Part shown: positions 26,060 to 59,985 of the stretch, in pieces
Numbering within the stretch: the stretch's first letter is position 1
How the letters are laid out: every line of letters begins with the position of its first letter
NCBI RefSeq assembly: GCF_030323265.1
Contig: NZ_CP104992.1
Span: 1 to 64,000 of the forward strand
Length of the DNA: 64,000 bases
Origin: Terrirhizobium terrae
GTDB lineage: Bacteria > Pseudomonadota > Alphaproteobacteria > Rhizobiales > Rhizobiaceae
Direction of reading: 5' to 3'
Position numbers and translations under genes: made by a program
The notes under the pieces: generated by a model
Seen by the model: only the letters and a program-made list of their open reading frames with translations
Databases searched by the model: none
What the model was told of the DNA's origin: nothing

Positions 26060-26155
26060 TGTCGGGGCCGGCCTAATTCGATTCTACCAAGCTACTGATT
26101 TAATTCTATCGCGTCGGAAAATACGATTCTAACGTACCGGGTAGATTCGATTCCA
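26060..26155. repeat. Left transposon end with spaced ATTCTA repeats
   Basis: ATTCTA occurs at 26081, 26103 and 26126, and ATTCCA at 26150, so the units are 22-24 bases apart. Three of the four are preceded by CG. The first unit has the same distance from the terminus (base 22) as at the right end. These are the expected TnsB-binding sites. The tniQ stop codon lies 37 bases inside this array. Confidence 0.8.
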
Positions 26156-26191
26156 GGTTAATCAGACTCGGGACAGGCCCAAGAGACAAGC

Positions 26192-28145
26192 TTATGCCGA
26201 AAAGGTTTTCCACATCTTGGCGGAGCCAAAAACCACAATGCGACCCTTTTTGTGGGCGCCGACGCACGGTATCGTATTCGCCTCTAGGCTGGCAGTGATC
26301 GTCGGAAGTAGCTCTTCGTTATCGCACATGGCCATGCGTGTCCGCAGCTCTGTAGACGACAGATATAGGTCACGATAACTCCATAGGTCGGAGAGCGTGA
26401 GTTGATCTTGAAGAAACTTTCGCTGTCGAACCGATTGGAGCGTGGACTTTGTCAGGCCTAACACCGACATCACCGCGGTTCTATCCGCAGGCAACCGGCC
26501 AAGTGACGTAGATAAACGAGCACGCGATATGACCGCACCGAGTTTGTCGAAATCCGCAACGCGAAAATAGGTAAACGAGTCCGCCTTACCGTGCTTCCAG
26601 ACGGTCAACTCATGGTCGAGAATAGCCGTCAGCACTGTTGGCCAGGGATTGACATCTCTAGGCGCAAGCGCAGCGATCGCAACGTAAAGAGCGATAGCCT
26701 TCCGGGGCGCCCTCACCTTCAAAACGACGTCCTCAAGGCGTTCCTCAAGACGTACGCTGCGGACTTCACCCGCCCTTTCCGACAAACGATCCAGGAGGGG
26801 ATCGACGCCCTCCAGAAGGTTGCTGCTTATCAAGTCGCCAACGAAACATACAGGCAGCCGCACCCGCCTGCACCACTTTCGAAGCCAATTGGAGCTCGAA
26901 AGCATAACAAAGTTTAAGTCGGCTGCGGATGCAGCCGGCGCAATTCGCCTAACGGTTCGAACCGCCGATTCGAGGCCATGTTTTCCGAACCGGATCCTCC
27001 CGTCATGCCAGAAGGCTTCCGCGAGATTTCGTGATTGCTGATGTTCATCAACAGAAACTGCTGCTTCGCTGAGCGTCATCATCACCGTTTCGTCTCGGCC
27101 CGCGAGTGCGACAGTTTTCAATAGTCTCTGCAAATCGGGTTCCAACATCGTCACGACCGATCGCACAGGGTAAGATGGCGGGAAGACACTTTGAGAGGGG
27201 CATCGTTCTAGCTTTTGCGTTTGCCACGCGCGCAGCTTTTCCGAGTAAGCAGCAAACCCCTTAGGCCAGTTGATAAGCGCACGAGCAGCCTCGGCGAGGT
27301 CATGTGCGTGGGGCAATCCCAGACGCGTAGCCAAAGGTGTCCGTCCGCTATCATGGATAAGAAAATTTTTATAAAATGCTAAGCTCGAGATGAGCTCGAA
27401 GAGTTGCCCCGGCCCAAAGCGTCTGAGGTCATCGTGGATTAGGCGGCAGTCAATATCGCTTACGGAAACCTCAGGGTTAACGAGTTCGACAGCAATATCT
27501 AGCGCTTCATTGTCGTCTACATTAATCAGATCGCAACTATAATCTCGGAAATCGGTTATGACACCATCTCTGAGAAAACAGTTAGCGCACTGCTCGACCC
27601 CATAGGTTTTATTGAATGGCAACGCGCCGTCACACGCGGGGCATCTGATGAGCAGTTTCTCTCGAGTGGTCGGATCAAAACTTATCCCTTGGACGGACCA
27701 AATCGCCTTTTGATAGTTGCTTCTCCTGAGGGATCGAGGTGAGACTCTGCGTTGATGTTCAAAGAAATTCTTTCTGCGAACATCCCTTCCGAAGAAGTTT
27801 ACTCTCGTCCCGGCGCTATCGACCTGCTCATGCAACAGGGACGACACAGACGTACCTGAGGGGAGACCGAGCACGTCTGCTATTAGTTGGCAATCAAGCT
27901 CCCTTCCCGCCAGAGCATATGGTGTGGGTTTGATATGTCCATTCATCCCAAGCAATTGAGAAACGAAGTAGGGACTTTGGTGGCCATTTTCCGACGTGGC
28001 GCGAAACAGCAAATCGGCAGAATCCCTCCCCAGGCATTATCTCTACGGGGAACGCGAGACGGCGCCCGATCAATGATGCCAGCCTGGTCACATGAGAGAC
28101 GTCGTCGTGATAGTAGGCCCCTTTCTCTGTGGGATCGAAAGCCAT
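26192..28145 (-). CDS. tniQ: TniQ/TnsD-family target-site selection protein, frameshifted
   Basis: Joined frames give about 650 residues. The N-terminus reads TRLASLIGRRLAFPVEIMPGE, followed after the break by DSADLLFRATSENGH, the conserved TniQ start. A zinc-finger pair follows (CPACDG and CANC, about residues 175-205), then a long C-terminal region as in TnsD-like members. The break near 28024-28026 is resolved by removing one G. The start overlaps the tnsC stop (TAATG). In Tn7-like elements this protein recognises the target DNA and recruits TnsC, so it is the best candidate for directing insertion into ftrA. Confidence 0.88.
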
Positions 28146-29131
28146 TATGCGGCCTCCTTCTCATCCGTTTCCAAGCCGGCAAAGGGATTTGCATTGCAGA
28201 AAACCCCAACTGCGACATTGTCCACCGCTTCGGAAAGATGGCGGACGTGGATTTGCGAGAAGCCATCCTCAAAAGCAAGCTCAGAGGCATTCCATACGAT
28301 CCTAAAAACGCCCCCTAGAAGGCCAGCCGACGCGTCAAATAAACATGCTAAAATGTCGTCGCTCTGAAAGTCGCTATACTGCTCCATAATACCCTTCTCG
28401 ACTAAGCTGATGGAAAGATCGGAACAAAAATCGCGGAATATTTCCTTGTCTACATCACGTTCATAAACGAGCACCCTTGGTTTAACCCGATACATCATCC
28501 TCCGTTTGATCTGCTTTTCACGAAAAAGCTTTTCTTCAGCATCAGGTATTCCAATAAACATGATTGGATAGCCTTTAATCAGTAACCCCTTGAGGTGGTT
28601 GTGGACCGTATGAGCCTCTTCCTCCGTGGCACTTGCCAAACTCTTCGGTGTCCTGAGATGATTGACTTCGTCGAATACGATTAGCTCGGTTCCCAAGCGC
28701 TTCATGAGCTTGTGCGCGCGATAAACCTGTTGCGGGACAGTACCCGACGCTGGCGTTGGATCGCCCAACGCCGTCAACAGCCACATCAACATAGCTGGTA
28801 TGCTGGAATTCTCCGGGAGACTGACGTGTAGAACAAGCTTCTGCTGATCGACGACCTCTTCCCGTGGCGTACCTATCGGAAACAATCCACGCGCGAAGCA
28901 ATCGTCCACGATCCGCGTTTCGATGTACATTTTGATTGCTTCGGACTTACCATATTGGCTGTCAGCAAATAGACACCCAGCGGGCTGCTCACTTCCCGGT
29001 TTGGCATTTCGTTTACAGCTTCTGAGGATATCGAGCTTAATGAAGATATCTTGCGCTAGTGGCGTCATTATCCTCAAATCAAGCATTCGAGGGGCGATCT
29101 CACTCACATCGCGAACTAACTCCATCACCAC
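28145..29131 (-). CDS. tnsC: TnsC/TniB-family transposition AAA+ ATPase
   Basis: The 328-residue AAA+ protein has a Walker A at residues 56-63 that reads ADSQYGKS, with Ala where Gly is usual, and a Walker B at LIVFDEVNHL (Asp154, Glu155). Sensor-type segments follow (YPIMFIGIPDAEEKLF), as in TniB/TnsC. It links TniQ at the target to the transposase and gives target immunity in Tn7. Codons here are richer in A/T than in the flanking chromosome, consistent with foreign origin. The downstream tniQ start overlaps its stop by one base. Confidence 0.88.
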   Translation of the reverse strand: MVMELVRDVSEIAPRMLDLRIMTPLAQDIFIKLDILRSCKRNAKPGSEQPAGCLFADSQYGKSEAIKMYIETRIVDDCFARGLFPIGTPREEVVDQQKLVLHVSLPENSSIPAMLMWLLTALGDPTPASGTVPQQVYRAHKLMKRLGTELIVFDEVNHLRTPKSLASATEEEAHTVHNHLKGLLIKGYPIMFIGIPDAEEKLFREKQIKRRMMYRVKPRVLVYERDVDKEIFRDFCSDLSISLVEKGIMEQYSDFQSDDILACLFDASAGLLGGVFRIVWNASELAFEDGFSQIHVRHLSEAVDNVAVGVFCNANPFAGLETDEKEAA

Positions 29132-29180
29132 CTCCCTGATGTGGTGGCAGCTCGCTTTGCCAAATAGGCCTGGATTTCCG

Positions 29181-31447
29181 TCACATTCTTCTTCTCGGGA
29201 GTACGATGGGAGGAGATTTCGATCTCCGGCGACGGTGAACGAGAGCGATCACTTGGCATCTCGTTTTTTCTTGCCGGTCTCGTTCTCCCTTCGCCGCAGC
29301 TTCAGCCCTATTGCGGGCTCGCGTAGCAACACCCTTAGCAGTTGACTTCTGGCCGCCTCGCACAGGTCCTGTCGCCGCTTGGCCATGGTTCCTCCGGACT
29401 GTTGCGGGCGCGTCGTTCGGGATCCCACCAAGACCACTTACCGATGGAGGAATTTCGGCCTGTTCAACTCGGCTTCCAGCGCTGAGCGACCAAGCCTCGG
29501 TATCGTACAGCCGGGCTTCTTTCTTTGTAGGTTTGACGCCTTCCTTGAAGATACCCTCCAGATGTTGAAACAGATTTCGTCTATTCTGGGCGCGCTCGAG
29601 ATCGGAGCCCGCGGAGAGTTCCTGTTCTTCTTCGAATTTTCTGAGACGCTTTGACATGTCGAATGATAAATCCCTTGTGGTTTCAGGGAAAATGTTAGGA
29701 AGTTGTACCAACAGCCCCGTCGCTTCGTTCAACACGTTTAGAACACCGCAGTTTAGGGGTCGAAAAAAACGTTTACGTGCAAAACAAGCGTTTGCCCTGG
29801 CCCCCGCTGTTCTCGTTTGCGGGCCATCGGCGCCATGTCTCGAGATCAAGATGGTCGTCAGCGCCTGGTCGTGAAAGCGTTCGGTCTTGAAAGTAATGCC
29901 ACTCGTTGTAAGGACCGCTCGGCCGTACTGGCCAACAAGGCGATCCAGCACCTGTACATCGTCCAAGGTAGGACGACCGAATTGTCGGATGCCATTCTCC
30001 CATTTCCTTGCAGGTGCGACGCCGCCGCGAGGGGTGGTGATATGCAGAATGGTCACGATGAATTCACTTAGACGCCTCGTGGCCTCCGCCAGCGTATAGC
30101 ATGCGGCGTCACTTGGATCGTCCTCTGGAACGTTTCGCTTGTCCTTGCCTCCCGGCCTTCCCCCAGGCAACTGGTGCCAGAGGCCGTTTGTGGTACCAAA
30201 GGTTCGCTCGACCAAAGCTTTGTGCTCAGGCGTGCGCAACGAAGCATATACGATGTCGATGCCGACAAACTCGAGCACGGTCTGCAGCGAAACGCCGATG
30301 TTTTCGAGACCATTGTCGAGAATAAAGGTCGAAGCCCTGCCCCATCCGTCAGTGGCGCCCCTATACCGGCCAAACCGTTCTTCGAGCTCTGTCTTTGGTC
30401 TGAGCGTATGCCTTATGCACTTCATCAACGAGTAGACGGACGGAGGATAGAGCGAGAGGAAGAAGCCAAGAACCATCTTTGAGTAGACATCGATGGCGTA
30501 GACCAACCAGGCGCGGACTTTGCGGAGAACCTCCCCTTACTATTTTTAACTAGAAGGAAAACGTCGGTTTCTGTTTGATCTAAGATGACATACTCAAGTG
30601 GGCGTGTGGCCTTTATACCGTCCACGGTTCCTACAAAACGTTTGTGAGCGTTCCGACGCCCGAACTTGGCAGCGTACCGTTCCTGGGTTTCGGATTTATC
30701 AATCCACTCGTTTAAGGTAGTTCGACCCGGCGGAGTCACGAGCTCAAGCGTCCGCTTTAGACGCTCTTCTTCAAACCACGTACGGAAGAACGCGCGTGCG
30801 GTCTGCTTCCTTACATTTGGTTGCCAGAAAAGTGTGATCATCCTCTGTTTAAGTTCGACCACCCAATCTGGCCAGCGGCTCTCGCGGTGTTTGCCAATAT
30901 TTGCGAGAATAAGGCCTAAAGGCCGATTGCCTGGCGTGCCGTAGCGATTCAGAAAGATCCTGAATTGACTTTCCGAAATTCGCCATGTCGCGCCGTTTGC
31001 CCATGTCAGGCCGTTGGCGGCAGCCTCTTTCTGCATCGCGTCCAGAAACGGCGTCAACACCTTATGATATGTCGAAGCGCCGGGAGTTTCGTCGTAACGT
31101 TTAAGAGCGTGCGCAATCGTCCGGGCAGTCACGACTCTCTTATGCGCCGCTTGTCGTCTTTCTTTTTCTTTCTTGCTTATCCGCGGGTCGTTTGGGTCTA
31201 GCAAATGCTTAACGTTGATCGCATCTACGCCGGTTGGAACACCCTCACGCTTCGTGCGCTTGGCGCCACCTGTCCCGCGCATTTTCGAAAATGCGTCATA
31301 GAGGATGATCCGCTCCTCAGCCGTCTCCAAATCCTTGAAAACGATTGAGCCGTCGTTGTTCGTGCGAACAAAGCGGAAAGTTCCTTCCAAGCTTAGATCA
31401 GGGATATGATACTCGTCACCGTCCTTAGCATCAATTACATCTGGCAT
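29181..31447 (-). CDS. tnsB: TnsB/TniA-family DDE transposase, frameshifted
   Basis: Joined frames give a 755-residue Mu/TnsB-type transposase. The N-terminal DNA-binding part is followed by the RNase H-like core with catalytic residues in VILDQTETD (Asp290), FILDNGLENIG (second Asp) and TPEHKALVERTFG (Glu). A Mu-type C-terminal barrel and a basic tail rich in Arg/Lys follow. The break is at CCCC 30533-30536; one added base gives KGEVLRKVRAWLVYAIDVYSK. It cuts the 3' ends of the element and joins them to the target. The upstream tnsA gene ends 53 bases before its start. Confidence 0.9.
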
Positions 31448-31500
31448 CCTTCACCTCACCAGAAGCACGTTTGTATCAGCGCGAAGTTCGCGAGTAAGAT

Positions 31501-32276
31501 CTATCGAAATAATTCGACGCACCTGCATTGCCGATGCCTTAGCAACGCCGGTGGGGCCTCCCCCAGTGCTTCGACTACCCGGCTGTATGGTTGGGCCGAT
31601 CCACGGGAAATGTACAAGCGTCTCAAAGCGTCATGGTCATGAAGTGACAACGACGTGTGCCTGTCGATCGTTATCGCGCGGAAACGTTCGACAATTTCTT
31701 TGGGGAAGTGCGTTATCTGGTCCAAAACGAGGAAGACAATTCCCAGGCGTCGATGGACTTCCACAGCGAGGCGCAATTTTGCCCCGTAAAAGGGGTCGTG
31801 AAGTCTTGGGTCGTCCTCCGTTTTTATCTCAAGGACAAGCCTTCGACACTGAGCCTGCGGAACAGCCCTGCTTTTCGCGACCGCCGCGGCCAACCAAAAT
31901 GGCGCCCCCTTCCTAATTCGGCGATAAATTCATCATCGACAAACAGTTCCATGTCAGGAAAATAGAGCAAAGGCTCTGATAACTGCTGCACATTGATTTC
32001 AAGCCGATAGGGTTGAACGAGGAGGCCCGCGACGCCGGTAGCGACTTCAGCCACCTGTAGTGCGGGTAACTCCCCGCCTATTGACTCCCACGGCATTGAT
32101 CGCAAGCCGGCCTTATGAGAAACAAATTTCCCTGTACGCCCTTTTCTGCGACCGTTGATTATCTGGCGAACCGGACCACCGTCGATCGATCGGACAATTC
32201 TTGCGATGGTATTCGCGTCCGGAAAACGCCGGAGATTATTGTCGGGGGTACGCCGCCTCGAACTTCCAGGTTTCAT
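31501..32276 (-). CDS. tnsA: TnsA-like transposon endonuclease, frameshifted
   Basis: Joined frames give 258 residues from ATG 32276. The PD-(D/E)XK pattern of TnsA is visible: an acidic residue in SIGGELPALQ, then YFPDMELFVDDEF (Asp) and RRLVLEIKTEDD (Glu-x-Lys). The break is in the C run 31905-31909; one added base gives GAPFWLAAAVAKS and continues into the nuclease core. TnsA cuts the 5' strands so that the element moves by cut-and-paste. Its presence separates this element from Tn5053-type TniABQ transposons, which lack it. Confidence 0.82.
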
Positions 32277-32984
32277 GTAACCGCACCTCTCATCCCTCGT
32301 GTACGAGCGCGTCCGCCCTCTCACGCACGGATGAGATCAGCGAATTTGACCGAGGTATAGCCCTGATGGCTCGACCGACGGCTCATACGCTGTTCTCGAT
32401 ACGCTAAACATTAGAATAAGACTAAAACGCAAAAAGCTCGAATCCTTGCAAGCCGTCGAGAGTGCTGAGTTGCTCGCGATACAATTGCAGGTAATCGAAT
32501 CCTTTTATGGCCGACTCGTCCGTAAGGCCGAGAAGCCCCATCCTATGCGGACTTGGAAGGATTCGAGCACGATCCTTTTAGGTCGTAGGCGAGAAGGCCC
32601 CTTCCAACTCGAAACTTGTTGAGAAGCGTTGCGGACCCGAAACGATTCGGGCACCTGTCAACCTGCAATAATAATATTTTGCAAATCGGCCGCAAACCTT
32701 CACCTTGCGCGCAAAGCGGCGGCGATATGATCAATAAATGAGGCGCTAAGAGCGAGATCACGTGGGGACGTGACTTGCCTAAAGGCGAGATTCCTGAACG
32801 ATCGTTCCCCTTACCACGATGAACTTTACGCGGAAGGAGAGCGCGATGCCCGGCGTGATTCAGTGTCCGCGAACCGCGGCGCCAAGCCCGCCGGCTGCCG
32901 AGCTCAAGACGTTCCCGAAACCTGCGGAGCTCATCCGGGCGCACGGGACCGCCCGGCTTGGAAAAGTCCATCCTAAGAGCAGGA
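32277..32984. other. Non-coding stretch upstream of tnsA with three CGAATCCTT repeats
   Basis: No credible gene was found; open frames on both strands are short and lack family features. Three copies of a motif stand out: GCTCGAATCCTT at 32436-32447, ATCGAATCCTT at 32494-32504, and the inverted copy AAGGATTCGAGC at 32557-32568, spaced about 60 bases apart. They lie 160-290 bases upstream of tnsA and differ from the end repeats (CGATTCTA). They could be operators for the tns operon or remnants of an older transposon end. Confidence 0.5.
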
Positions 32985-34103
32985 TCAAGCTTGCTTGTAC
33001 GTGACCAGAGTAGCCTCGCAAACCTCCGCGCCATGGCGTGAAAGAAGGTCGAAGTCGTACTCCGATATCTTCGTCAAGTTGGTCGGGTAGTTCAGCGAGA
33101 GAGCGCTCTGCTCGTCGGTGAGCCGCTCCGCAAGCGCGGCTGGCTCCATGCCGAACTGCCGCATGGCAACGCCCATTCGAATCAGTACGCCCTTCACTTC
33201 TCCACGCTGAATCGAACCCATCAGCATGCGCGATCGCAGTGCCCGTATCTGATCGCTTGCGATGTCGAAGAGCCGCGGCGAGTTGAGCCTGCCCTGAAGC
33301 ATCCCGTTTATCGAAAAAGACTTCGGGGGCGTCAACGGCCCCGAGGCATCGCTACAGATGAGGAGGTCGCACCCTTGAAGGCCGTCGGCAGGCTTGTAGA
33401 CGGCCTCCAGACCCATGTTCTCGTATGCCCCGCCATCCCAGAGCCGAACGCGCCGCATAGGCCGTGCAATCTTCTCTTGCGGCTTCTTTGTCGCCCGGTC
33501 CGTCTTCCACCAGCCATGTTCCGGCAGCTCTAGCCGCAGCACGCCGATCGCGTAAGGAACTGCTGCCGACGCCGCGATAGCCTTCGCGATCGGGACGTCC
33601 GGGCTGAAGTGACGCCCGAACACCCAGTCTCCCATCATCCTCTTCGAGAACCGCCAGTTCTTGCCGGTCTCGAAGCAGGTCGTGTTGATATGCCATTCCG
33701 GCAAGTCGGGCAGGTCCTTCACCGATCCTTTGACGCCCCAGCGAGCGGAGAGAAGTTTGGGCAGAATCTCGGCTCTTCGAAATAGGATACGAATGTTCTC
33801 CCGAAGGATGCCACGCCAGCCCAGTGCGCTGAGGCTGAACAGGTCGCCGGCCGTGAGCCTCCTACGAAGCTCGGGATAGACCTCGTCCAGGAACTGCTCG
33901 GAGGTCGGCCATTTAAAATCAGCGTGGGAGAAGATCGCACCCACGACCAGGCTGCCTCCGGACACGGTGGAGATCTGCGTGACTTCCTCGAGACGGCCCA
34001 GCCTTGCAAGATGCCGGAGAACCCCCAGGTGAAACACCGCCGCACGAACGCCGCCGCCTGAAAGAGCGAGGCCCAACCGCGGCCTGTGTACAACGTCATC
34101 CAT
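32985..34103 (-). CDS. Patatin-like phospholipase, probable defence effector
   Basis: The 372-residue protein is a patatin-like hydrolase. The oxyanion motif is ALSGGGVRAAVFH (residues 14-25), the nucleophile Ser48 lies in STVSGGS and the catalytic Asp223 in LWDGGAYENMG. There is no signal peptide, so it should act on the inner face of the membrane. Patatin lipases kill infected cells by membrane damage in CBASS (CapV) and other systems. Its start overlaps the E2/E1/JAB gene by 8 bases, tying it to that ubiquitin-like operon; no cyclase gene is present here, so the trigger must differ from CBASS. Confidence 0.88.
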   Translation of the reverse strand: MDDVVHRPRLGLALSGGGVRAAVFHLGVLRHLARLGRLEEVTQISTVSGGSLVVGAIFSHADFKWPTSEQFLDEVYPELRRRLTAGDLFSLSALGWRGILRENIRILFRRAEILPKLLSARWGVKGSVKDLPDLPEWHINTTCFETGKNWRFSKRMMGDWVFGRHFSPDVPIAKAIAASAAVPYAIGVLRLELPEHGWWKTDRATKKPQEKIARPMRRVRLWDGGAYENMGLEAVYKPADGLQGCDLLICSDASGPLTPPKSFSINGMLQGRLNSPRLFDIASDQIRALRSRMLMGSIQRGEVKGVLIRMGVAMRQFGMEPAALAERLTDEQSALSLNYPTNLTKISEYDFDLLSRHGAEVCEATLVTYKQA

Positions 34104-36336
34104 CTGCCAACCTCCTCGTTCCGGCCAGCAGCACCGACATGTCGTCTTCCGCGACGATCAACGACACGGCCGGCAGGCCGTCGAGTTCCATGGCGTCCTT
34201 CAGTTGCCTGATCTGTTCGAGATCGGTGCCGCTTGGACGTGAGGAACGGCCGGTCGGATGCGAATGCCATTCGCCGATGTACCGGATCTGGTTACCTGTC
34301 CGGGCGGCGGCAGCCTCGATGTCCGTGCGCAGGCGGGAGACGCCGCGAGTAAACGACGAGGGAGTGCCGACGCTGTCGCTGGGCGGAGGAAGTGCTCCGA
34401 CGACATCGACGCGACGGCGTTCGAAGTCGAACATTCCCATCAGCGATCCACCGGTTTCCGATGGCAGCGCCAGCGAGCGGCGTTGGCGGAGTTCAACCTT
34501 CAAAGAGGCTGGCAGGACGACCGACCATCCCTCGGCCGTCGTCGTCGCCATGGTACCGGACACCGAAGTGATCCTTATGCCATCCTCGTTCATGGTCCAG
34601 ATCTTGAGCACCGCATTCGTCGTCCTGACACCGGATGCGATCCCAGCAGCGATCAGGCCCGAAAGCACCTGGATCGACGCCATCGGGATTCTGTTCGTAA
34701 GCGCCCTGCACGCCCCGGTATACTGCATCCGGTCGACGGCGCCGAGGTGGCCCTCGATAGCAGGGTTCTGCAACACCTCGCGGAGATACAGCGTCTCGAG
34801 ATCGCGGAGTGTCAAGGAGCGCGCCTCGTCCTCGATCATGAGAACCGCGGACTTCCCATCGGGCGTGAAGAACGCGCAGAGACGCCGAGCAGCGCTCGGC
34901 AGGTCGGACGCCCACCGGGAAACGGGAACAGAGGCAGAGGCGTCGAGGATGAATTCGGCGTCGCCGATCTGCTGATCCAATACCGCCTTGTCGATTGGGG
35001 TCAGGACGTTGTCGACGACAGGACGCGCATCAACGTCGTCCCTGATCCCCATTAGCCTGTTCGCGAGCCCGATGGCCTTGCTTCTACCGACGAACTGGTT
35101 GTTGAGCGTATGCCTCGCCACGTTGTGCGGAAGCAGAGTGTCGTCGTCTACGATCGTCCATTTGAAGAGCCCCTGTCGGGCGAGTATTTCCGAGATCGCC
35201 GAACCGGCGGATCCAGCGCCGATCATGACCACTCGACGGTCGTCGGCATGCGGCTCGCCAGAGAGACGGGCCGCACCGGCTGCATCGAACTCCTTGTGAA
35301 CGAAGGACATCGACACTGGAACGTCCCGCACTGCATCCATCGATACGCGCGCGCCGACATTAGGGAGGAAGTTTACCTCCTTCGCTTCGCCGGAGACGTT
35401 GCGCAGGAGGAAGCCCATCTTCTCTCCGATCTCTCCGGGGCTGTATGCCGTCACGAACGCTACCGTCTCGCTCGTTCCGACATCGCCGGTGTTCGGATCG
35501 ATCTGCGGCATTGTCACCAGGAGGCAGGTGATACGCTTGCCGTCTCCTGTCTCCTTCCTGCCGTTTACCCAGTCCCTGATGGACTGCTGGAGCAGGCTTG
35601 GGAAATCGACCCCGGCATCGACCAGAAAGTCCGACAACCGTCCGAGGTCTCGGGGCGCCCTCTTCATCCGTTTCATCTGCTGTGGCTCGATCGCGCAATG
35701 GAAGGCCATCAGACGGATATCGTCACCTCTGATACCCGGTGGCCTGGATCCTCCTATGAAGATGCACTGCGCGTCCTGGTCGACGGCCCAGATGAACAGG
35801 CTAGACCCCAGGCGGGCCGCTTCCCAGAAATCGTTCTTCAAGATGATCTGGTTGAAAACGTCGGGAAGAAAGAGAGGGTCGAGGGGCTGCCCTGCCCCGT
35901 GAAGCTCGCCTTGGCATGCCTTCTCGAACCAGCTACTCAGACGACCCATGAGTTCGGCGGCCGTGTAGAAGCTACGAGTGTCCTGCCATGGACGGTCGTC
36001 GATGCAGATGCAGGCGGGAAATCCTTCGGGCATCAGGTTCTGATGCGGAGTGTCTGGAAAATCCGGGCGGGCGACTAGGACGGTATATGACATGGAGCCG
36101 GTCCGCGCAAAACACACGGTCAATGATTCCACAGGCAAAATGGCATAGACGGGCCGCTGCGGCCGCTCGACCATCAGGTCGAAGGAAAGAAGATCGAACT
36201 CCCCGTACCTTCTGCACTCTCCGAGGGTGGCGTAGCTCTCGCCCGGCCCCAGGATATATTCGTGCAGCGCCCTCGCAAGAGGATTGGCGAATGCGTGTAC
36301 GTCGACGACTTCCGATCCTTCCGGCTGCCAGTACAT
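34096..36336 (-). CDS. E2-E1-JAB fusion protein (ubiquitin-like conjugation/deconjugation)
   Basis: The 746-residue protein appears to hold three modules. An N-terminal E2-like domain (about 1-160) has PDTPHQNLMPEGFPACIC with Cys109/Cys111 near the expected active site. A ThiF/E1 domain (about 365-600) has the ATP-binding motif GAGSAGSA (373-380) and a candidate catalytic Cys543 in YTGACRALT. A C-terminal JAB/JAMM peptidase (about 615-746) has Glu627 in ETGGSLMG, EWHSHPTG (His691, His693) and Asp705. Such E2, E1 and JAB sets occur in CBASS (Cap2/Cap3) and in other bacterial ubiquitin-like operons. The conjugated protein is not evident. Confidence 0.85.
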   Translation of the reverse strand: MYWQPEGSEVVDVHAFANPLARALHEYILGPGESYATLGECRRYGEFDLLSFDLMVERPQRPVYAILPVESLTVCFARTGSMSYTVLVARPDFPDTPHQNLMPEGFPACICIDDRPWQDTRSFYTAAELMGRLSSWFEKACQGELHGAGQPLDPLFLPDVFNQIILKNDFWEAARLGSSLFIWAVDQDAQCIFIGGSRPPGIRGDDIRLMAFHCAIEPQQMKRMKRAPRDLGRLSDFLVDAGVDFPSLLQQSIRDWVNGRKETGDGKRITCLLVTMPQIDPNTGDVGTSETVAFVTAYSPGEIGEKMGFLLRNVSGEAKEVNFLPNVGARVSMDAVRDVPVSMSFVHKEFDAAGAARLSGEPHADDRRVVMIGAGSAGSAISEILARQGLFKWTIVDDDTLLPHNVARHTLNNQFVGRSKAIGLANRLMGIRDDVDARPVVDNVLTPIDKAVLDQQIGDAEFILDASASVPVSRWASDLPSAARRLCAFFTPDGKSAVLMIEDEARSLTLRDLETLYLREVLQNPAIEGHLGAVDRMQYTGACRALTNRIPMASIQVLSGLIAAGIASGVRTTNAVLKIWTMNEDGIRITSVSGTMATTTAEGWSVVLPASLKVELRQRRSLALPSETGGSLMGMFDFERRRVDVVGALPPPSDSVGTPSSFTRGVSRLRTDIEAAAARTGNQIRYIGEWHSHPTGRSSRPSGTDLEQIRQLKDAMELDGLPAVSLIVAEDDMSVLLAGTRRLADG

Positions 36337-36340
36337 TCGG

Positions 36341-36481
36341 TCAGCCGTTCCTGCCCGCCCGCGTGGGCGTAGAGGCGGCGACGCTAGTCGCGGTCGCCGC
36401 CGCCGCGAGCATGACGGCGACTCCTTGGGCGGTGATCTTAAGATGGATCGGCTTCGGCCGCGCTTCGCTCGGCGTCTCCAT
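36341..36481 (-). CDS. Short hydrophobic ORF between hydrolase and E2-E1-JAB gene
   Basis: This 46-residue frame starts at ATG 36481 inside the 3' end of the metallo-hydrolase gene (44-base overlap) and stops 4 bases before the E2-E1-JAB start. It has a basic N-terminus (EARPKPIHLKITAQG), one hydrophobic Ala-rich segment (VAVMLAAAATATSVAA) and a C-terminal Arg-rich tail ending RNG. It fills an otherwise empty gap in a tight operon. It could be a small membrane or modifier-like peptide, or only a translational coupler; ribosome-binding evidence is weak. Confidence 0.4.
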   Translation of the reverse strand: METPSEARPKPIHLKITAQGVAVMLAAAATATSVAASTPTRAGRNG

Positions 36482-37481
36482 GGTCACGAGGAACTTGCCG
36501 TTCAGAATCCTTGATGATCTTTCGATAGTAGTTCGCGGCCTGACGGTGCGGCGGCTGCACGTCCTTGTCGGCTTCCGTCCCTTTCAGCGGGATCGGTTTG
36601 CTAGGCGAGACGATGATCTCGTTTTCGCGTGCGAGCTCTTCGAACAGCCACTTCACGTCCTCGACCGGCTCCGTCATGTACTCGCCCTTGTCCGGCGAGA
36701 GAGACAGGTAGGAGCAGTGATGGAACAGCTTCAGGACATCCCAGTGAAGGCGATCCTCGTTGTCGTGTTCCCGGCTTGTCCGTACGATCTGGGAGAGGCT
36801 CTCGTGATCGATGTCCGCACCAAGCAAGGCATAGGATCTGTTCAGTCCCTCGCGCATCGTCATCTGCACGACGATAGATCCCTGATTGCGGTCGATCAGG
36901 CCGGCGTCAGTGCGCCAGGCGAAGGGACTGTGCACGAAGAACTCGACTGCCTCCGACCCCCACTTGCTGAAACCCGGAACCAGCTCGCCCGCGTTGACGA
37001 TGCAGTGCATCCGGGATTCCAGCGTAAGACCGTTCTCCTCGAGGTAGGACTTGAGGGCCTCAGGACGGGAGAAGACCTTGATGCCCCTCCCTTCCTTGAG
37101 GCGGTGCCGGGCCTCCTGCCGGATAACGCGGGCGTCGTCGTCGAGAGCAACCTCCGTCAGGACGCCCGCGGGCACCCAGAGTTCGTCGATCTTCATACGG
37201 TCGCCGCCTTGATACGCGGCCGCATGTTCGAACCAGAAGAACTCGCTGGAGCGAAAGATGTGGTCCTTGTCGAGATGGGTGAAGGCGACGACTCGGAAGG
37301 ACTCCTGGCCGGCCTCTTCCATGGCGTCGCGGATCGCGGACGGGAGATCGATCCGCTTGTCGAAGGGGTCTTTCTCATTGCGCATATGCGCGTAGTCCAT
37401 CAGGACGACCTGATTGTTCGCAAGCTGAATAAAGGTCGTGTCAGCATTCCCGGTCGGGAAGAACTTCATGTGTGCCGTCAT
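36438..37481 (-). CDS. Metallo-beta-lactamase-fold hydrolase of the ubiquitin-like operon
   Basis: The preferred start is ATG 37481 with GAGGA upstream, giving 347 residues. MKFFPTGNADTTFIQL is the standard MBL-fold opening and THLDKDH (His69, Asp71, Asp73, His74) the metal site; further ligands are likely in SPFAW and LFHHCSY. It is the first gene of a minus-strand operon with the E2-E1-JAB protein and the patatin. MBL-fold genes have been noted beside E1/JAB genes in earlier surveys of bacterial ubiquitin-like systems. The substrate (nucleic acid, nucleotide or protein adduct) is unknown. Confidence 0.82.
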   Translation of the reverse strand: MTAHMKFFPTGNADTTFIQLANNQVVLMDYAHMRNEKDPFDKRIDLPSAIRDAMEEAGQESFRVVAFTHLDKDHIFRSSEFFWFEHAAAYQGGDRMKIDELWVPAGVLTEVALDDDARVIRQEARHRLKEGRGIKVFSRPEALKSYLEENGLTLESRMHCIVNAGELVPGFSKWGSEAVEFFVHSPFAWRTDAGLIDRNQGSIVVQMTMREGLNRSYALLGADIDHESLSQIVRTSREHDNEDRLHWDVLKLFHHCSYLSLSPDKGEYMTEPVEDVKWLFEELARENEIIVSPSKPIPLKGTEADKDVQPPHRQAANYYRKIIKDSERQVPRDHGDAERSAAEADPS

Positions 37482-50289: not shown

Positions 50290-51483
50290 CTACCCGAAGG
50301 GGAGAAAGTAGAAATCAGCCAGACCGGAATTCGGCCCAAGGAGCGCGTACTTGCTCTCATTCAGCTTCACCAATAGGTGGGCTATTCCCTCGTTTATCGA
50401 ACGGACGACCTTCGCCGCGAGAGATTGAATAGCAATGTTCACCGGTCCGTCAGGCCCGGCAAGCGGAAGGAGCGCGATCGCGCACGCGGCATGGACGCGG
50501 GCGGCTTCAAAGGCGTCTTCTACCGCAGCTCCTCTAGCGCCGAAAGCGCTGGATAGGCCCTCGATAAACCCGACTGCCATCGCCGGCTCGCTCTCGAGAC
50601 GCTTGCAGACCGGAAGGATGACATCAAGGAAGCTATCGGCGTTGAACTCCCGCGACAAGGAGAGATATTGCTCCCAAATAGCCTCCGAGGCCGCACGGAT
50701 GTGCTCGTTCCCGGCGCCATCTCCGGTCAGTCCGGGAAATGCCTCGGCAATGTAGGCGTTCCCGCCTGCAAAGCATGGATTCTTTGACAATTGGGAGATG
50801 CCGAAGAGGTTGATGCCCCAAGACACGGGAGTTTGGAGCTTGCCTTGCAACATCCTGGATACAACTTGCCCAACCTCAACAAGGTCGAGCGAAGGCCGGG
50901 TCGTCTGAACGACAGTGTCCCCACGAAGGCATGACATGAGCGCGGTCGTACAATGCCCTGCTCCGCCGGTCTCCAGCGCGTATTCGTCGGATCCCGACGC
51001 GGCAAGGATGGAGACAGCGAGAGAACCGACCTTCCCGATAACATTCGGATTAAGTAGAACGCCGATGTCGTGAACCACGCCACCGGATTCACATGCGTCG
51101 ATGATGACGTTGGTATGACCGACCTTCGCTTCCGTGATCCAGGCGAAAAGCTGAGTCATCGCGAGCGCGTTGAACGACATCCTGTCTACGTCCGTGTCTC
51201 TCAAGCATAAGAAGTAGCTGCCGTCTTTGACGCCTCCGTGACCGGCGAAGAAGATCGTCAGTTCCTCGATGACGTCGGCCGAGTACAACACGTCCTCGAG
51301 TTCCGTCTTCAACTCGGCGATCGTTGGCGAAAGGAGAATTCTCGAGCTCGGTTCGTCATAGGCACCCCAACCACTCGACACGAGGTGGTCGTAGACAGCT
51401 CGAGCGTCGTTCTCGGCTCCTGCCAAGGTAGAAAGGGGTGGCTTATCGTAAATGTCGCAGCCAATCGCGATCAATGCCCGCAT
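50290..51483 (-). CDS. Caspase-family (C14) peptidase
   Basis: The 397-residue protein has an N-terminal caspase-like domain: MRALIAIGCDIY, the catalytic His82 in FFAGHGGVKDG and Cys131 in IIDACESGG, in the usual order and spacing. The C-terminal 200 residues are helical with no recognised repeat. Bacterial caspase-like proteases serve as abortive effectors or as activators in several defence systems (for example type III CRISPR-associated and gasdermin systems). It is flanked within one operon by two unknown proteins, one ending a base before it and one starting 5 bases after. Confidence 0.88.
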   Translation of the reverse strand: MRALIAIGCDIYDKPPLSTLAGAENDARAVYDHLVSSGWGAYDEPSSRILLSPTIAELKTELEDVLYSADVIEELTIFFAGHGGVKDGSYFLCLRDTDVDRMSFNALAMTQLFAWITEAKVGHTNVIIDACESGGVVHDIGVLLNPNVIGKVGSLAVSILAASGSDEYALETGGAGHCTTALMSCLRGDTVVQTTRPSLDLVEVGQVVSRMLQGKLQTPVSWGINLFGISQLSKNPCFAGGNAYIAEAFPGLTGDGAGNEHIRAASEAIWEQYLSLSREFNADSFLDVILPVCKRLESEPAMAVGFIEGLSSAFGARGAAVEDAFEAARVHAACAIALLPLAGPDGPVNIAIQSLAAKVVRSINEGIAHLLVKLNESKYALLGPNSGLADFYFLPFG

Positions 51484-51484
51484 G

Positions 51485-52568: not shown

Positions 52569-52783
52569 ACATATCCCTGCGCGAGAGGGAGCCGCCCGGC
52601 TTAAAGGATTGTGGGTGGGCCAAGCGCCACGAGAAATGTTATACAATACTTTGAAATTATGACCTGTTCTTTCCCGGACCGCTTAACTCGCGGGCGACGC
52701 CCCCGACAGGCTGGACATTCATTCAGCCGTTGATTGCATCAAAGACCTCGCATAAATCTCTGTCACATCTCATGAGGTTTGCG

Positions 52784-55506
52784 ATGACCGAATCTGCTGA
52801 AGTGCCGATGGAATTGTTCACGCTGCTCGGACACAGCGGTGTCGGGGACGAAATTAAAGCTGCCATCCGGATGTCGGAGGGTGCCCGGTTCCACAGATGC
52901 GCTTTCCAAGTCAATCCCTTCGAGTACGGGCTGCGGCATTCCGCTGTCGACCAGACTTTCGCGACCGAAGCAGAATATAATGATGCAATGGTCCGCGCAT
53001 GCATTGCTGCGGGCGTGACGGTAGTCGGACTTACGGACCATTTTCGAATATCTACGACAGCTACGTTGCTCGCAGCCATGGAAGCTGCCGGGATCAAGGT
53101 CTTTCCCGGTTTCGAAGCCAATTCGAGCGAGGGCATCCATCTCCTGTGCCTATTCGAACTGGGAACGCCTCTTTCCACGATTGAGCGCTACATCGGCGCG
53201 TGCGAGATCGTCGATCATACCGTTCCGTCGCCTCTCGCCAGAAAGACATGCGAGCAGATAATGCAGATGGTGGCGGAGGCCAACGGCGTATGCATTGCAG
53301 CTCACGTATGCAGCGCGAGCGGGCTGCTGACCACGCTAAAGGGCGGCCCTAGGGCGCAAGCTTGGAAGTCCCAGCATTTGCTTGCCGCGGCAATCGCCGG
53401 CCCGAGGGAGGAAGCGCCCCAGAGCTGCCTCGACATCCTCAGAAACAACGATACGACCGCCAAGCGTGATCGCCCAATTTGTATCGTGAACGCGAACGAC
53501 GTGACGTCTCCTTCCGGGTTCGCCGAGAAGAGCTCTACAACGCTCGTGAAGATGACTTCCGTTTCTATCGAAGGGTTAAGGCAGGGCTTCCTAGACTGGG
53601 AATCCCGTATCAGATTGAACTCGGAGCCAGCAGACGACGAACATCAGGAGATCGTCGCCGTAGGCTGGGCCGGTGGCCTTCTTGATGGACAGGGGCTGCG
53701 GCTTAATAGCGGATTGAACGTCCTGGTGGGTGGACGCGGAGCTGGAAAGTCTACGCTCATCGAGAGCCTCAGATATGTCCTGGGGGTCGAAGTCAAAGGA
53801 GACGAGGTCAAACGCAGCCATGCCTCGATCTTGAAGCAGGTCCTCGGGCCCAACTCGGTCGTCTCTGTCCTGATACGGCTTCCAAAGCCTTCCCCCAGTA
53901 CTACCTGATCACCAGGATACTCGGGCAGTCGCCGGTCGTTTACGATCAGAACGGCAATCGATTGTCGGACGTATCTCCGGCGGCTCTGATCGGAAACACG
54001 GAGATCTTCGGCCAGCACGAAATCTCCGAACTCACGCGGCACCCCGACAAGCTCGCGGAAATCCTCCGGAGGTTCACTTCGGGCGATACCCACTTCGGCG
54101 GAGACCGTCGAATTCTTTGCGACAAGCTTGGGAAATCGCGAAAGGAGATAAACTCACGAAAGTCCGACCTCGACAAGATCGAGGAACAATTAAGCGCCTT
54201 GCCGGGCTTGAGAGCGAACCTTGCCCGTTTCGCGACCGCCGGGCTCGAGGAGCGTTTGAGCGAGAAGTCTGGCTTCGACAGGGAGGTGCGGATCTTTAGT
54301 TCCGCGTTCGGGGCGGCAGAAGACCTCGTGAGCGCGGCCGCCGCACTTGCGCCGCCAGAAGATGGTTCGAGAGTCCTGCCTCCGGACGATGTTGACCTCC
54401 CAAGCCGGAGCTTGCTCGAAAAACTTGATCAGATTGCCGCTCGCCTGGACGAGGCGAAGATAAAGGCAGCAGCGGATCTGGAGGCGGCAGCGGCGGCAGC
54501 CAAGACGGAGATCACCGCGGTCCAGGCGGAATGGACGCCCCTGCAGGAAGCGGCGGAGAGGCGGTTCGGCAATTTGGTGCGAGAACTTGAAAGCGAAGGA
54601 CACGAGCCCCGAAAGTTTGTCTCCTTTCAGGACCAGGTGGAAGCTCTGAAGCCCAAGGAAGTCGAGAAGCAAAACCTCGTCGCGGAACTCCAGGCGTTGA
54701 GAACCACGAGAGCCGATCTTCTCGTCGATTGGGAACGCATAAAGGCGCAGGACTTTCGAGCGCTGGAAAGAGCGGCGCACAAGGTTTCGAAGCGGCTGGA
54801 GAACCGCGTTCGTGTACGCGTGCGTCAGAACTCGAATTTGGCACCCCTTGAGACAATCTTGAGACAACGAGTCGGTGGAAACCTGACTGCCGCCCTGGAG
54901 AAGCTTAAGGATCGAGATGCGCTGGGTCTCACCGACTTGGCAAACACGATACGTGCCGGGTCACAGGCCCTCCAAACTGCCTACGGGTTCACGAGCGCCG
55001 GCGCGGACCGCATTGCACAACACGGAGACGTGCTCGCTCTGGAGATCGAAGAATGCGAATTGCCACCGGAAGCGGTCGTTGAACTGAACGTCGGCCCGGA
55101 AGGTTCTCAGACATGGAAGCAGCTCGACGATCTTTCGACCGGCCAGAAGGCAACTGCCGTGCTCCTTCTTCTCCTTCTGGAATCGGAAGCTCCGCTCATC
55201 GTCGACCAGCCGGAAGACGATCTGGACAATCGTTTCATCGCCGACAGCATCGTTCCCGCGATGCGCGTCGAAAAGCGGCGCCGCCAGTTCATCTTTTCGA
55301 GCCACAATGCGAACATCCCAGTCCTTGGCGACGCCGAACAGATCATCGGCCTACAGCCGATCGTGGACGGTGGCATCGAACGGACCATCATCTCGGAGGA
55401 TCTCTCCGGATCGATCGATGCTCCGAAAGTCAAAGATCTCGTCAAGAAGCTCCTCGAAGGAGGTCAGCGAGCCTTTACCACTCGTCGGGAGAAGTACGGA
55501 TTTTAG
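52784..55506 (+). CDS. TrlF-family protein: PHP domain fused to SMC-like ATPase, frameshifted
   Basis: Joined frames give 907 residues from ATG 52784 (GAGG upstream). The N-terminal PHP-type metallo-esterase part shows VGLTDHFRIS, FPGFEAN and CIAAHVCSASG. The ATPase has Walker A GGRGAGKST (about 315-323), a coiled-coil middle rich in Glu/Lys/Ala, a signature LSTGQKAT and Walker B LIVDQPEDDLDN near the C-terminus, then FSSHNANIPV. The break is near 53877 (one G missing). The PHP-plus-ABC/SMC layout matches the TrlF family, often found in defence islands. Function is inferred only. Confidence 0.8.
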
Positions 55507-56271: not shown

Positions 56272-56489
56272 AGTCTTATCTCCTGGATCGTTGCTGGAGA
56301 TAGCGTGGCGCCGCACGAAACGGGCGTCAATCGACTGACAAAAGATCTCGCCGATATTGCTGCAAGTGAATGCTCCTCGCTAGGATTGGCCGCCGCGACT
56401 TTCAAATTTCCACCTTCGATTTTCACAGCAGCGAGTTGACGCCTTTCCAAGGTTCCCCGACCATTAAAACCAACGGACGAGGAAACCAC

Positions 56490-56810: not shown

Positions 56811-56948
56811 CCTAGTGAACGGGAAGATGACGCTCGACGAAGCGTGGAGCCATGAATGATGGTATCGACGCGATGGCCACCGGGTACGATAGGATTTGTT
56901 GGGGACAGCGCCCCGTTTCCTGAATACGGGGCGCAACCGCTCCTGCTC

Positions 56949-58829
56949 CTAACGCTCGGCCAGGGTCGAGGCCGTAGGCTCGCCCGATTGACCAAACCTT
57001 CCCAGCTCGTTGAGCGCGATCCTTCTCTTGTCCAGCAGCTCGGTCGTCAGCTCCAGCAACCTTGCGCGCTCTCGCTGAAGGAGCGCTCGGACGTTGCCCC
57101 ACTCCGCAAGGAGGATGGCGTCTATTTCGGTTGAGATCGCACCCACAGGCCGATAGTGACGCTCGACAACCTTTCTCTCGGCGTAAAGGCGCGGAATCTT
57201 ACCCATGCCCCATGAGGCCACCATCAACGACGCAATGTTCGTTGCCGTTTGGAGATCCGAGCCCTCACCGCCGCCCGCTCCCGTGCTTTTGGTGCCAAGT
57301 TCAACGTCCTCGGCGGCGAGACCCGCCAAAGAAATCCTCATCTGCGCCCGGAGTATTTCTTCGGTCAGGACAACCGAATCCTTCATCTCGTACTTCACAT
57401 GTCCGCCCGACTGGACGCCTCGCTCCTCGATGATAGCGTCGAAAAGCTCGATGCTTACCGACTTGATAAAATCGCAATCGAGAGCCGCCAACGCGTGTCC
57501 GCATTCGTGCAAGGCAAGCCGCCGGAGCTCTCCCCCGACACGTAGACCCTGGATGGCATGCCCGCTTCGACGTCACTATCATTGACGTCCCGCCCGCCTG
57601 CACGCGCGGAGCGCCTGATCGCGCGTCCGATTCTTTCCAGATCAGCCGGAGTGAAATCAGGAAGCTGATCGGTCCAGCGTCTGAGACGGCCGGCGTCGAA
57701 CCCTTTGAGGTGGTAGGACAGAATATCGGCCCGCTCCAGCGGTGTAGGCAGGTCGATCGAAATATGGCGCTCGAAGCGACCCGACCGAAGGATCGCCAGC
57801 TCGATATCGTCGACGCGGTTCGTAGCCGCCAGCAGAACGACGCCCGGCATCACCCGGCCTGTGAGCTCGAGGAAAGTGTTTACGACCTGGGTTTCATAGT
57901 ACGCATGCTGGCTCGGATGGGCACGGTTCCCGATCGAGTCCAGCTCGTCGATAAAAAGCAGAGCCCCGCCGCGGGATTTCGAAGCCTTCTCGAAGTCGAG
58001 GCGCATTGCCTTCAACATGTCGCCGAGGTAGCCCCCGCCGGCCGACTGCCATTGCCCAGCCGAAGTCGCGATGAATTGGAGGTCCAGCTCCGCAGCCAGC
58101 GCTCCGGCGCACATCGTCTTTCCTACGCCGGGGGGACCAATCAGCAATGCGGCGCGGTCGAGATTGAACCATTCAAGCTCTCCTCTTCCACGCCGCCAGA
58201 TCCCGAGAAAGCTCTGACGCCCAGGATCGCACCGACCCGAATCCTGGCAGTTCGCCCAGGCGGGGTGCTGCGGCCGATGAGTTTGAGGCGGGCGCAGCCA
58301 GCATCGATCGGTCGAGAGAATCCCGACAGAGCAGAGCGTCGATCATGTCCCAGTTCTGATTGGCAAGCAGCCTCGCCGTTTCGTTGGGGACCATCTTCCG
58401 GCCGGTCAGTTTCCGGACTGCGTTGATCTGTCGAGGCGTAGGGTTATCAACATACCGAATCTCGTCCGCTGCAATCTTTACTTTATCGGGAAGCACGTCG
58501 AAACTATCGGTGACAACGATCGTCTGAGCCGAATATCGGAGGATGTCGAGCTCTACATTCTTCCTGGAACCCGTCTCAATGCTGACGACCTGATGCCTGG
58601 AAGTCTCGGCATTGAAAAACGCCTGGCGCTGTCCAGAAAGAAGAAGTTCCCCCGCGCGGTGAAACCGGCCAACCCAACCCTTGTCCACGATCACGACAAG
58701 AATGCCAGGCGCATCGCTACGAAATTGCACCGTATCGCGAAGGCTTCGCCGAAGGACAAAGTAGCTTAGCATCACACCCGGCCTGCGCCGAAGCTCCTTA
58801 AAGGCACCCGCTGCGATCCGGTGCCTCAT
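56949..58829 (-). CDS. FtsH-like AAA+ zinc protease, two frameshifts
   Basis: Joined frames give 626 residues. The N-terminal 200 residues are specific to this group and lack the FtsH membrane anchor. The AAA module has Walker A GPPGVGKT (231-238), Walker B LLFIDELDS and ATNRVDDIE with LRSGRFERHI. The M41-type peptidase has HECGH (His441, Glu442, His445). Breaks are near 58180 (one base in excess) and 57550 (one missing). Its start overlaps the DUF6634 stop (ATGA). A cytoplasmic, soluble FtsH relative in a defence island suggests a regulated protease effector. Confidence 0.8.
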
Positions 58830-59134
58830 CGCGCGTCAATCCCGCCAGCCGAGCCGAGACGGTACCAAGAATTCGTTGTGCGAGCAAAGAATTCGCCATC
58901 GTCCTTGAGCACAGTGATGAACTCGCTCGTGCGAACCTCGTGGCCGTCCGGAAAACGCGGGTGCCCCTCGAGCGAGCCTTTAAGGCAGCTTACGATGGTG
59001 AACGTGTGCACCCAGTCGTTTAGCACCGGAACGGACATGAGATCAGGTGCTTTAATGCTTCCTGCCTGAAGCCGCTCCAAGTCGGCGAGGAGCTTCTTCA
59101 AGGTAGATATTCGACCAGCAAGACTCGGCTGCAT
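58826..59134 (-). CDS. DUF6634 family protein
   Basis: ATG 59134 is preferred (GGAG upstream), giving 102 residues; the open frame extends to 59245. The sequence has LLADLERLQAG, APVL-like VPVLNDWVHTFT, then GHPRFPDGHEVRTSEF and ends near NSWYRLG, the DUF6634 pattern seen in rhizobial genomes next to AAA proteases. It is translationally coupled to the protease gene. Function is unknown; a substrate adaptor or sensor is possible. Confidence 0.65.
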   Translation of the reverse strand: MQPSLAGRISTLKKLLADLERLQAGSIKAPDLMSVPVLNDWVHTFTIVSCLKGSLEGHPRFPDGHEVRTSEFITVLKDDGEFFARTTNSWYRLGSAGGIDAR

Positions 59135-59300
59135 GATTCGTTGCGCTCCAGAGATTTCGATGAGAATGCGGAAAGGATTCGAATGCCATTGGCTTTTGAA
59201 GCGAGCCATTGGCTTTTTTAGACGCCACATTTTGACCGGCGTCAACGATTTTTGACGTAGATTTTTGCTCGTCTCGAAAATCCATGCTTATGAATCCTTC

Positions 59301-59606
59301 ATGGAGCCGCTGCCGCACATACTGCTAAAGATCGCGCGAGAATTTCTCGGCCTGAGTCAGGACGAGGTGGTGGCGCTCATTGGCGTCGGCCGGAGTACGA
59401 TACAAAAGATCGAGCGCGGCGAGGTAGTCACCGAGGTCTACATATCGGTAGTTCGCCAGTTCTATGAAAATCAGGGTATCCGCTTTCTGGCTCCCGCGGA
59501 AGAACAAGGTTGGGGCTTGCGGAACGCGAACGTGTCGAGCGGAAAAGATCGCCTGAACAGGCTGTCCGAAATCCCGGCCGGCCGGAGAAAGAAAGAGACG
59601 AGCTGA
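59301..59606 (+). CDS. XRE-family helix-turn-helix regulator
   Basis: The preferred start, ATG 59301, gives 101 residues. The helix-turn-helix is clear: LLKIAREFLGLSQDEVVALIGVGRSTIQKIERGE. The tail is polar and basic (GRRKKETS). It is divergent from the DUF6634/protease pair, 167 bases apart from its partner's start, so it probably controls that operon and itself from the shared intergenic region. It is the last gene inside the transposon. Confidence 0.85.
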   Translation: MEPLPHILLKIAREFLGLSQDEVVALIGVGRSTIQKIERGEVVTEVYISVVRQFYENQGIRFLAPAEEQGWGLRNANVSSGKDRLNRLSEIPAGRRKKETS

Positions 59607-59985
59607 TTTAGCACGCAACGGCCCAAGCGTTGCGCACTCCAAATCAGCGCTCAAGCCCCCTCACCCAAACTCCAATCCTCCCCGGCGTCGGCACTCCTGC
59701 CTGTAACGAAGCGACATCACCGCGGGTGACTGGTAGAAAGCCGATCGCCGACTGCAAAAGATTGCAGCCAAGAATCTCTTTCTGAAACGAAAGAGCCATC
59801 AACTCACCGTCAGCGCAGGCGCTTGATGATCGAAATCGGAACTCTAAGCCGGGAATTGGGCTGTTTAAAGAAATCAGCGACTTAGCGCTTTAAGGCGTAA
59901 GGTAGAATTGATTCTAGAATTGTTTTTGCCCGCGGAAAGAACGAATATTTCCCTCTTTTAGAATGGCTTTTATCCGGTCCCGATA
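59607..59985. repeat. Right transposon end with spaced ATTCTA repeats
   Basis: No gene lies here. Read inward from the terminus (TATCGGGACCGG), ATTCTA starts at base 22 (59959-59964), a degenerate GTTCTT at base 44, ATTCTA at base 66 (59915-59920) and another at base 78 (59903-59908). The 22-base period matches the left end. The last two bases of the element are TA on the plus strand, where CA would be expected from the left end. Confidence 0.78.

Follow-up and report, generated by a model that had tools for sequence, protein, structure and literature searches.

The first 64,000 nucleotides of contig NZ_CP104992.1 of Terrirhizobium terrae (assembly GCF_030323265.1, positions 1 to 64,000), hereafter the window, almost certainly contain a complete Tn7-like transposon, which encodes TnsA, TnsB, TnsC and one TniQ of TnsD length, carries a defence-rich cargo and is inserted into the regulator gene ftrA with a 5-bp duplication. 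The element spans 26060-59985 (33,926 bases) and both of its ends are exact. We directly observe its boundaries, the duplication, empty sites in congeners, all four transposition genes and an end layout common to relatives. It is a new, divergent Tn7-like element, and sequence comparison makes it a divergent member of a mainly Rhizobiales lineage of such elements. Because its ends are exact and empty sites exist, it is a defined mobile unit, whose cargo can be separated from the genes of its host.

Ends and target duplication

A preliminary description of this DNA had reported GTGTC on both flanks, terminal inverted repeats and an ATTCTA unit at base 22 of both ends. All of these are present: the two GTGTC copies form a 5-bp duplication immediately outside the element (Table 1), and the repeats begin at 26060 and 59985. 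Read inward, the left end is TGTCGGGGCCGG and the right end TATCGGGACCGG, and further ATTCTA units follow at each. The duplication is also readable as 6 bp (AGTGTC); a length of 5 bp keeps both ends in register. We regard the repeats seen at the two ends as putative arrays of about 20-bp TnsB sites. ATTCTA is near chance across the whole window (16 occurrences versus 11.4 expected; at least 16 in 10 of 100 shuffles), and the evidence from the ends is therefore the clustering of these units together with their register.

A search of 57 genomes of the genus finds the full end pattern without mismatch at the two ends of the element and nowhere else. Allowing one or two mismatches gives 31 other matches versus 36 for a reversed control; these imperfect matches are therefore at chance level. 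A match with a single mismatch in the T. terrae genome itself (G000:C1:2580147-2580173) is probably also due to chance. The G+C content is 0.61-0.64 in 2-kb steps flanking the element, 0.52-0.53 at 26001-32000, which holds mostly tns genes, and 0.56-0.62 elsewhere.

The interrupted gene and its empty sites

Removing 26060-59990, that is, the element and one copy of the duplication, restores an open frame that contains FtrA and is 393 codons long, in line with the restored ftrA frame that had been reported. The insertion point lies at codons 15-17 and splits the gene, leaving its first 14 codons on the right flank. The FtrA orthologue of the congener G428 scores 529.9 bits against an NCBIfam FtrA cut-off of 425.

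The preliminary description had named an uninterrupted ftrA locus in related genomes as the observation that would confirm the element, and such loci exist. The right flank has matches in 23 of the 57 genus genomes, T. terrae counted. At 18 of 25 loci in other genomes the junction is spanned in one piece, and at the remaining seven it is unspanned. Twelve of the 18 spanning loci have 73-88% identity and seven are free of gaps within 30 bases of the junction; the closest empty site is 88% identical.

Transposition genes

All four transposition genes lie inside the element, as claimed earlier. Single open frames encode tnsC and tniQ, while tnsA and tnsB are in pieces in the assembly, a point that the preliminary description did not mention. 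The DDE transposase TnsB and the ATPase TnsC, which are expected of the Tn7-like class, are both present, with tnsB split over two frames. TnsA is recognized by 51% identity over 104 residues to a protein of the plasmid relative BG4, and by alignment. The TnsA of another relative, L085, falls narrowly under the Pfam TnsA cut-off (25.6 versus 26.5 bits) and has no PDB relative by sequence. Across the pieces of both window genes we find what we take to be the catalytic-motif regions of TnsA and TnsB.

The solved structures nearest to TnsC, TnsB and TniQ are all of Tn6677-type proteins. When solved structures are searched with a profile built from ten TnsC sequences, the window's included, Tn6677 TnsC ranks first (1.7e-29), and the C-terminal piece of TnsB matches the TnsB of Tn6677-type and other elements. 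The window also encodes a target selector of the TniQ/TnsD kind. This protein has no Pfam TniQ match, but it aligns with 23 other TniQ proteins with four cysteines invariant, and only 2 of the 24 aligned members match Pfam TniQ. A profile of the family gives no clear PDB match. The structural model of the window TniQ has a mean predicted local distance difference test (pLDDT) score of 76.6, and its ten best PDB fold matches are all TniQ entries, at E-values of which the best is 0.043 and none is below 0.04.

By analogy with Tn7, the ends would be held through the repeated sites and be cleaved and joined by TnsA and TnsB, TnsC would bridge to the target, and TniQ would pick the target by means of its long C-terminal part. 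We infer both cut-and-paste movement by the window's Tns proteins and the choice of ftrA by its TniQ.

Relatives of the element

In a family sample of 394 genomes drawn from a larger group, TnsC (E 1e-15 or better) is carried by nine genomes, T. terrae included, at 32-36% identity to the window protein; none was found at that threshold in the seven other congeners of the sample. An alignment-based scan of a species-genome collection yielded 92 relatives; 80 of them (L079-L158) were retained. Judged by length, several G and L entries are the same contigs (G215 = L085, G269 = L091, G153 = L086, G393 = L089, G174 = L093 and G238 = L100), and these are therefore not independent. Neither a single-protein scan of genome contigs nor a search of IMG/VR confirmed a relative. 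Among plasmids, 18 records have a TnsC relative, all at below 60% identity.

The gene order tnsA-tnsB-tnsC-tniQ is found in 18 of the 22 first-listed relatives (L079-L100) and is partial in L092, L094, L097 and L100. A second tniQ is present in seven of the 22 (L079, L080, L085, L088, L090, L091 and L092). Positions 1-12881 of L080 seemingly hold two lineage elements in tandem: tnsC with a pair of tniQ genes comes first, and a complete tnsA-B-C-tniQ set lies after it. In a TniQ tree of 33 rows, one group comprises 13 tnsC-adjacent proteins, and another group of nine comprises second TniQs together with the lone TniQs of B11 and L082. The window TniQ, 20-25% identical to those of the lineage, lies outside both groups on a long branch, which makes its position unsure.

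The end layout is also shared. In G215 both ends start TGTC, and a 5-bp CGCGG duplication flanks them about 57.5 kb apart. Thus, where a duplication fixes the ends (window and G215), three of four start TGTC, and the window's right end starts TATC. A comparison of eight ends places a GA[T/C]TC-like core at base 21 of the window's left end, the right end of G215 and the ends of G269, L088, L090 and L092. At this position the window's right end reads cATTCTA, and the left end of G215 is degenerate. A brute search for ends plus duplication solved the window and none of ten other sequences; G215 was solved later with more flanking sequence. The exact ends and duplication of the window element, the same layout in G215 and the related genomes that lack the insertion uphold the earlier claim of a whole Tn7-like element. 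At L010 22876-23000 the BG4 plasmid relative, whose end could be placed only approximately, seems to stop near the 5' end of a further DJ-1/AraC-like regulator.

Target sites

Some relatives share a locus made up of a lysR gene, a small open reading frame (ORF) with a KDIGWP-like motif and a DJ-1/AraC regulator gene, glxA. The small ORF is presumably DUF1127; Pfam gives it no match. We scored these genes within 5 kb of the tns region, at thresholds of 1e-20 for lysR and glxA and 1e-4 for the small ORF. They occur near tns in 10 of the 22 first-listed relatives (L079, L081, L083, L085, L087, L088, L089, L090, L091 and L092); five of these ten show the small-ORF/glxA side and five the lysR side. 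G215 is the one element that could be read on both of its sides, against the empty locus of G069. In L095, lysR is 6 kb from the tns region. The remaining 11 of the 22, some of which lie at the end of a contig, show no locus genes, and none of the three genes was found near tns in the other 58 loci. L082, L084, L096 and L099 may sit elsewhere, since 6-8 kb on each side is free of locus genes. In T. terrae itself, lysR (66% identity) has the small ORF and glxA adjacent, with no element between (L171; G000:C1:3664537-3665409). These gene matches show the locus to be, by homology, one much-used chromosomal site of the lineage.

Two simple rules of targeting were considered. The loci do not single out the second TniQ as selector of the lysR locus. 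Elements with related second TniQs (L085/L091 and L088/L090/L092) do sit at this locus; L083 and L089 are also there with no second TniQ seen in 8 kb downstream, as are L081 and L087, on contigs that stop early. That GlxA-family genes are a shared target might be suggested by L079, L081, L083, L087, L089, BG4 and the window's ftrA, and by a weak FtrA-like match in L126. We rejected this idea because glxA, in the five L loci that have it, lies next to the small ORF as part of the lysR locus.

That the element has a single TniQ of divergent sequence and is located in ftrA suggests a different or a relaxed target choice, between which a single insertion cannot decide. It is conceivable, although we think it rather improbable, that the lone TniQ, TnsD-like and divergent, has come to recognize the 5' coding part of ftrA as its attachment site, such that this branch left the lysR-side locus and now homes into, and switches off, a regulator. 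Since 10 of the 22 first-listed relatives share one locus and the window element, with a different TniQ, sits in another place, the lineage offers a natural contrast for TnsD-type target choice.

Weighing the explanations

Some observations count against a complete Tn7-like transposon. The right terminus (window 59980-59985) starts TATC and the left TGTC; Tn7-like termini are TG...CA at both ends, from which the element departs by one base at its right end only. This TA may be a mutation, a sequencing error or a tolerated variant. We found no second copy of the element and no empty site in the same species, the empty sites being those of congeners, and neither tnsA nor tnsB is open in the assembly. 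Furthermore, the ends of G269, L088, L090 and L092 were placed at the first GACA past tniQ or at the corresponding position, so that their TGTC is given by construction and only the position of the core is independent. The broken genes and the TA terminus could together mean a dead element, in which the right end has decayed and tnsA, tnsB and several cargo genes are genuine pseudogenes. We consider this unlikely. The genes for TnsA, TnsB, the PDC-S28 helicase and the TrlF-like protein all have interrupted frames, and tnsA and tnsB are both single frames in six relatives (G153, G174, G215, G269, G316 and G393); the signature of homopolymer error is also weak, because only 3 of 13 gaps in flanking genes lie near runs of four or more. 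However, the chromosomal flanks are faulty in the same way. In 17 chromosomal genes picked from an earlier protein comparison (19,795 coding bases; two genes overlap), those 13 gaps relative to G428 all change the frame, are each one base long and affect nine genes, although some may compensate one another or sit at alignment edges. At the protein level, six flanking genes switch frame at 87-100% identity, one of them also against G304. One-base frame changes against a congener are found in the chromosomal genes at window 2961-4592, 11042-12060, 14705-16761, 21743-23099 and 60132-60535, so that indel errors seem to be numerous in the assembly. The genome, in three contigs, is 91.25% complete; of the 56 other congeners, 55 reach 96-100% and the remaining one 78%. 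The similar one-base gaps in flanking genes and this low completeness make assembly error likelier than decay, and the breaks in tnsA and tnsB are probably assembly errors, as judged from these alignments. The broken frames should thus not be taken as decay without better sequence. Elsewhere in the lineage, BG4 has tnsA in one frame and tnsB in two, G104 shows tnsB as two separate open stretches without a tnsA match, B11 has an open tnsB and no tnsA match, and G238, whose tns genes lie at a contig end, shows neither gene. Programmed frameshifting in tnsB, for which the two-frame tnsB of BG4 might speak, was set aside, as the breaks in the flanks make assembly error simpler.

A serious contender, to which we give slightly less than even weight, is a lone TniQ of relaxed specificity or an off-site insertion. 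In this view the lysR-side locus is the preferred site of the lineage, and the window copy hit ftrA without recognizing it. The lineage locus is present and empty in the same genome, and insertion within a coding gene differs from the "safe sites" described in PMC8649781. Of nine other sites aligned locally with the ftrA site, six are well inside the range of shuffles (48-194 of 200 reach the score), and those of L088 (16/200), G269 (8/200) and G215 (4/200; 0/200 in another run) exceed most shuffles. The similarity is unconvincing, since nine tests were made and the match rests on a C-rich stretch. Against relaxed specificity, the window TniQ is TnsD-sized with a C-terminal extension, like the direct target binders described in PMC10293859. 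A CRISPR-associated transposon (CAST) guided to ftrA is highly improbable. The nearest solved structures are of Tn6677 type, and the PDC-S28 helicase weakly matches a type IV DinG model (2.7e-8), far under its PDC-S28 match; but the 30 element ORFs searched in Pfam include no Cas effector, the element has no direct repeats of at least 20 bases within 120 bases and no Rfam match, and its similarity to the ftrA site does not exceed its similarity to random pieces of the flanks. We likewise give almost no credence to a defence island with chance end-like motifs in place of one transposon. The cargo is a mosaic, and one of its modules recurs elsewhere, but the duplication, the in-register ends and the empty sites converge on the same two bases, and empty sites contradict such an island.

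Comparison with known systems

Tn7-like elements that have one or two TniQ/TnsD proteins and abundant defence cargo are a known kind, as PMC8649781 and PMC10293859 describe. The window element shares with these transposons the genes tnsA-tnsB-tnsC-tniQ, putative arrays of TnsB sites at both ends, a 5-bp duplication and defence cargo; unlike them, it lies within a coding gene and has one TniQ, which falls outside both TniQ groups of its lineage. We found no paper in the openly licensed literature on the lysR/small-ORF/glxA locus of the lineage or on placement in ftrA.

The arrangement of the element differs from that of Tn7 itself. In Tn7, tnsA adjoins the right end, whereas in the window element the tns genes point to the end nearest them, tniQ being the last in the row. 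With its mainly Rhizobiales lineage (e.g., L079-L092) it shares gene order, TGTC ends, the core at base 21/22 and a 5-bp duplication where this is readable (fully only in G215). It differs from that lineage, in which 10 of 22 first-listed members sit at the lysR/small-ORF/glxA locus, in its site and in the divergence of its TnsC (32-36% identical) and TniQ (20-25%). Tn6677, a type I-F CAST, provides the closest solved TnsC, TnsB and TniQ, but we found no CRISPR-Cas parts in the window element: neither cas genes nor a CRISPR array appeared in the 30 ORFs or in the repeat, Rfam and ftrA-match searches. Elements of the Tn5053/Tn402 family lack tnsA and have tni genes with a resolvase. This family does not fit, as tnsA is present and no resolvase occurs among the 30 ORFs searched.

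Cargo

By family labels, the cargo is rich in defence-like genes that are likely antiviral (Table 1), and several cargo ORFs have no family match. We found no paper in the openly licensed literature naming the 6A-MBL system. The stretch of patatin, E2-E1-JAB and MBL genes at 32978-37871 recurs at 88.4% identity in the congener G375 (L163, about 3568-8460). In 60 kb around that module G375 has no other similarity to the window at E 1e-8, and no TnsC was found in its genome at E 1e-15; cargo modules can therefore occur apart from the element. The preliminary description held that the entire defence set arrived in one event. Because the module recurs in G375, arrival of the whole cargo in one step is not shown, nor is it refuted, and some cargo may have been added later.

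Table 1. Features of the element and of the split ftrA gene, in window coordinates.
Feature	Position	Strand	Basis
ftrA body (DJ-1/PfpI and AraC domains), severed from its start	25123-26059	-	
Left GTGTC duplication copy	26055-26059		
Left end: TGTCGGGGCCGG, ATTCTA at bases 22, 44 and 67 plus a degenerate ATTCCA unit; putative TnsB sites	26060-26155	+	
tniQ/tnsD-like target selector, 606 amino acids, C-terminal extension	26192-28012	-	Four conserved cysteines; TniQ fold matches
tnsC, AAA+ ATPase, TniB family	28145-29131	-	Pfam TniB 2.4e-13
tnsB transposase, two frames (29181-30506, 30425-31447) in the assembly	29181-31447	-	
tnsA endonuclease, at least two frames (31501-31893, 31824-32324) in the assembly	31501-32324	-	
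Unassigned ORF upstream of tnsA	32543-33034	-	No family match
Patatin-like phospholipase	32985-34103	-	Pfam 2.3e-18
E2-E1-JAB fusion, 6A-MBL system cap2_3 protein	34096-36336	-	NCBIfam NF058523, 612.4 versus cut-off 320 bits
MBL-fold protein, 6A-MBL system	36438-37532	-	NCBIfam NF058524, 372.3 versus cut-off 220 bits
HNH endonuclease	42153-42635	-	
PDC-S02 candidate defence protein, weak match, N-terminal part only	44287-45645	+	1.7e-8
DUF2971 / PDC-S31 candidate defence protein	45757-46905	+	
PDC-S28 candidate defence helicase, two frames in the assembly	46941-49492	-	
Caspase-like peptidase	50290-51483	-	EACC1-associated model below its cut-off
TrlF/Ppl-like PHP-AAA ATPase, two frames in the assembly	52730-55506	+	Each piece under the TrlF cut-off
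AAA ATPase, IetA/IteA-like, N-terminal part missing in frame	57455-58147	-	
XRE-type helix-turn-helix regulator	59265-59606	+	
Right end: TATCGGGACCGG, ATTCTA at bases 22, 66 and 78 inward	59903-59985	-	
Right GTGTC duplication copy	59986-59990		
ftrA 5' piece past the element: first 14 codons plus duplication	59986-60034	-	

Beside the HNH gene, window 43503-44174 gives a weak match to the metallo-beta-lactamase fold (Pfam 1.8e-5).

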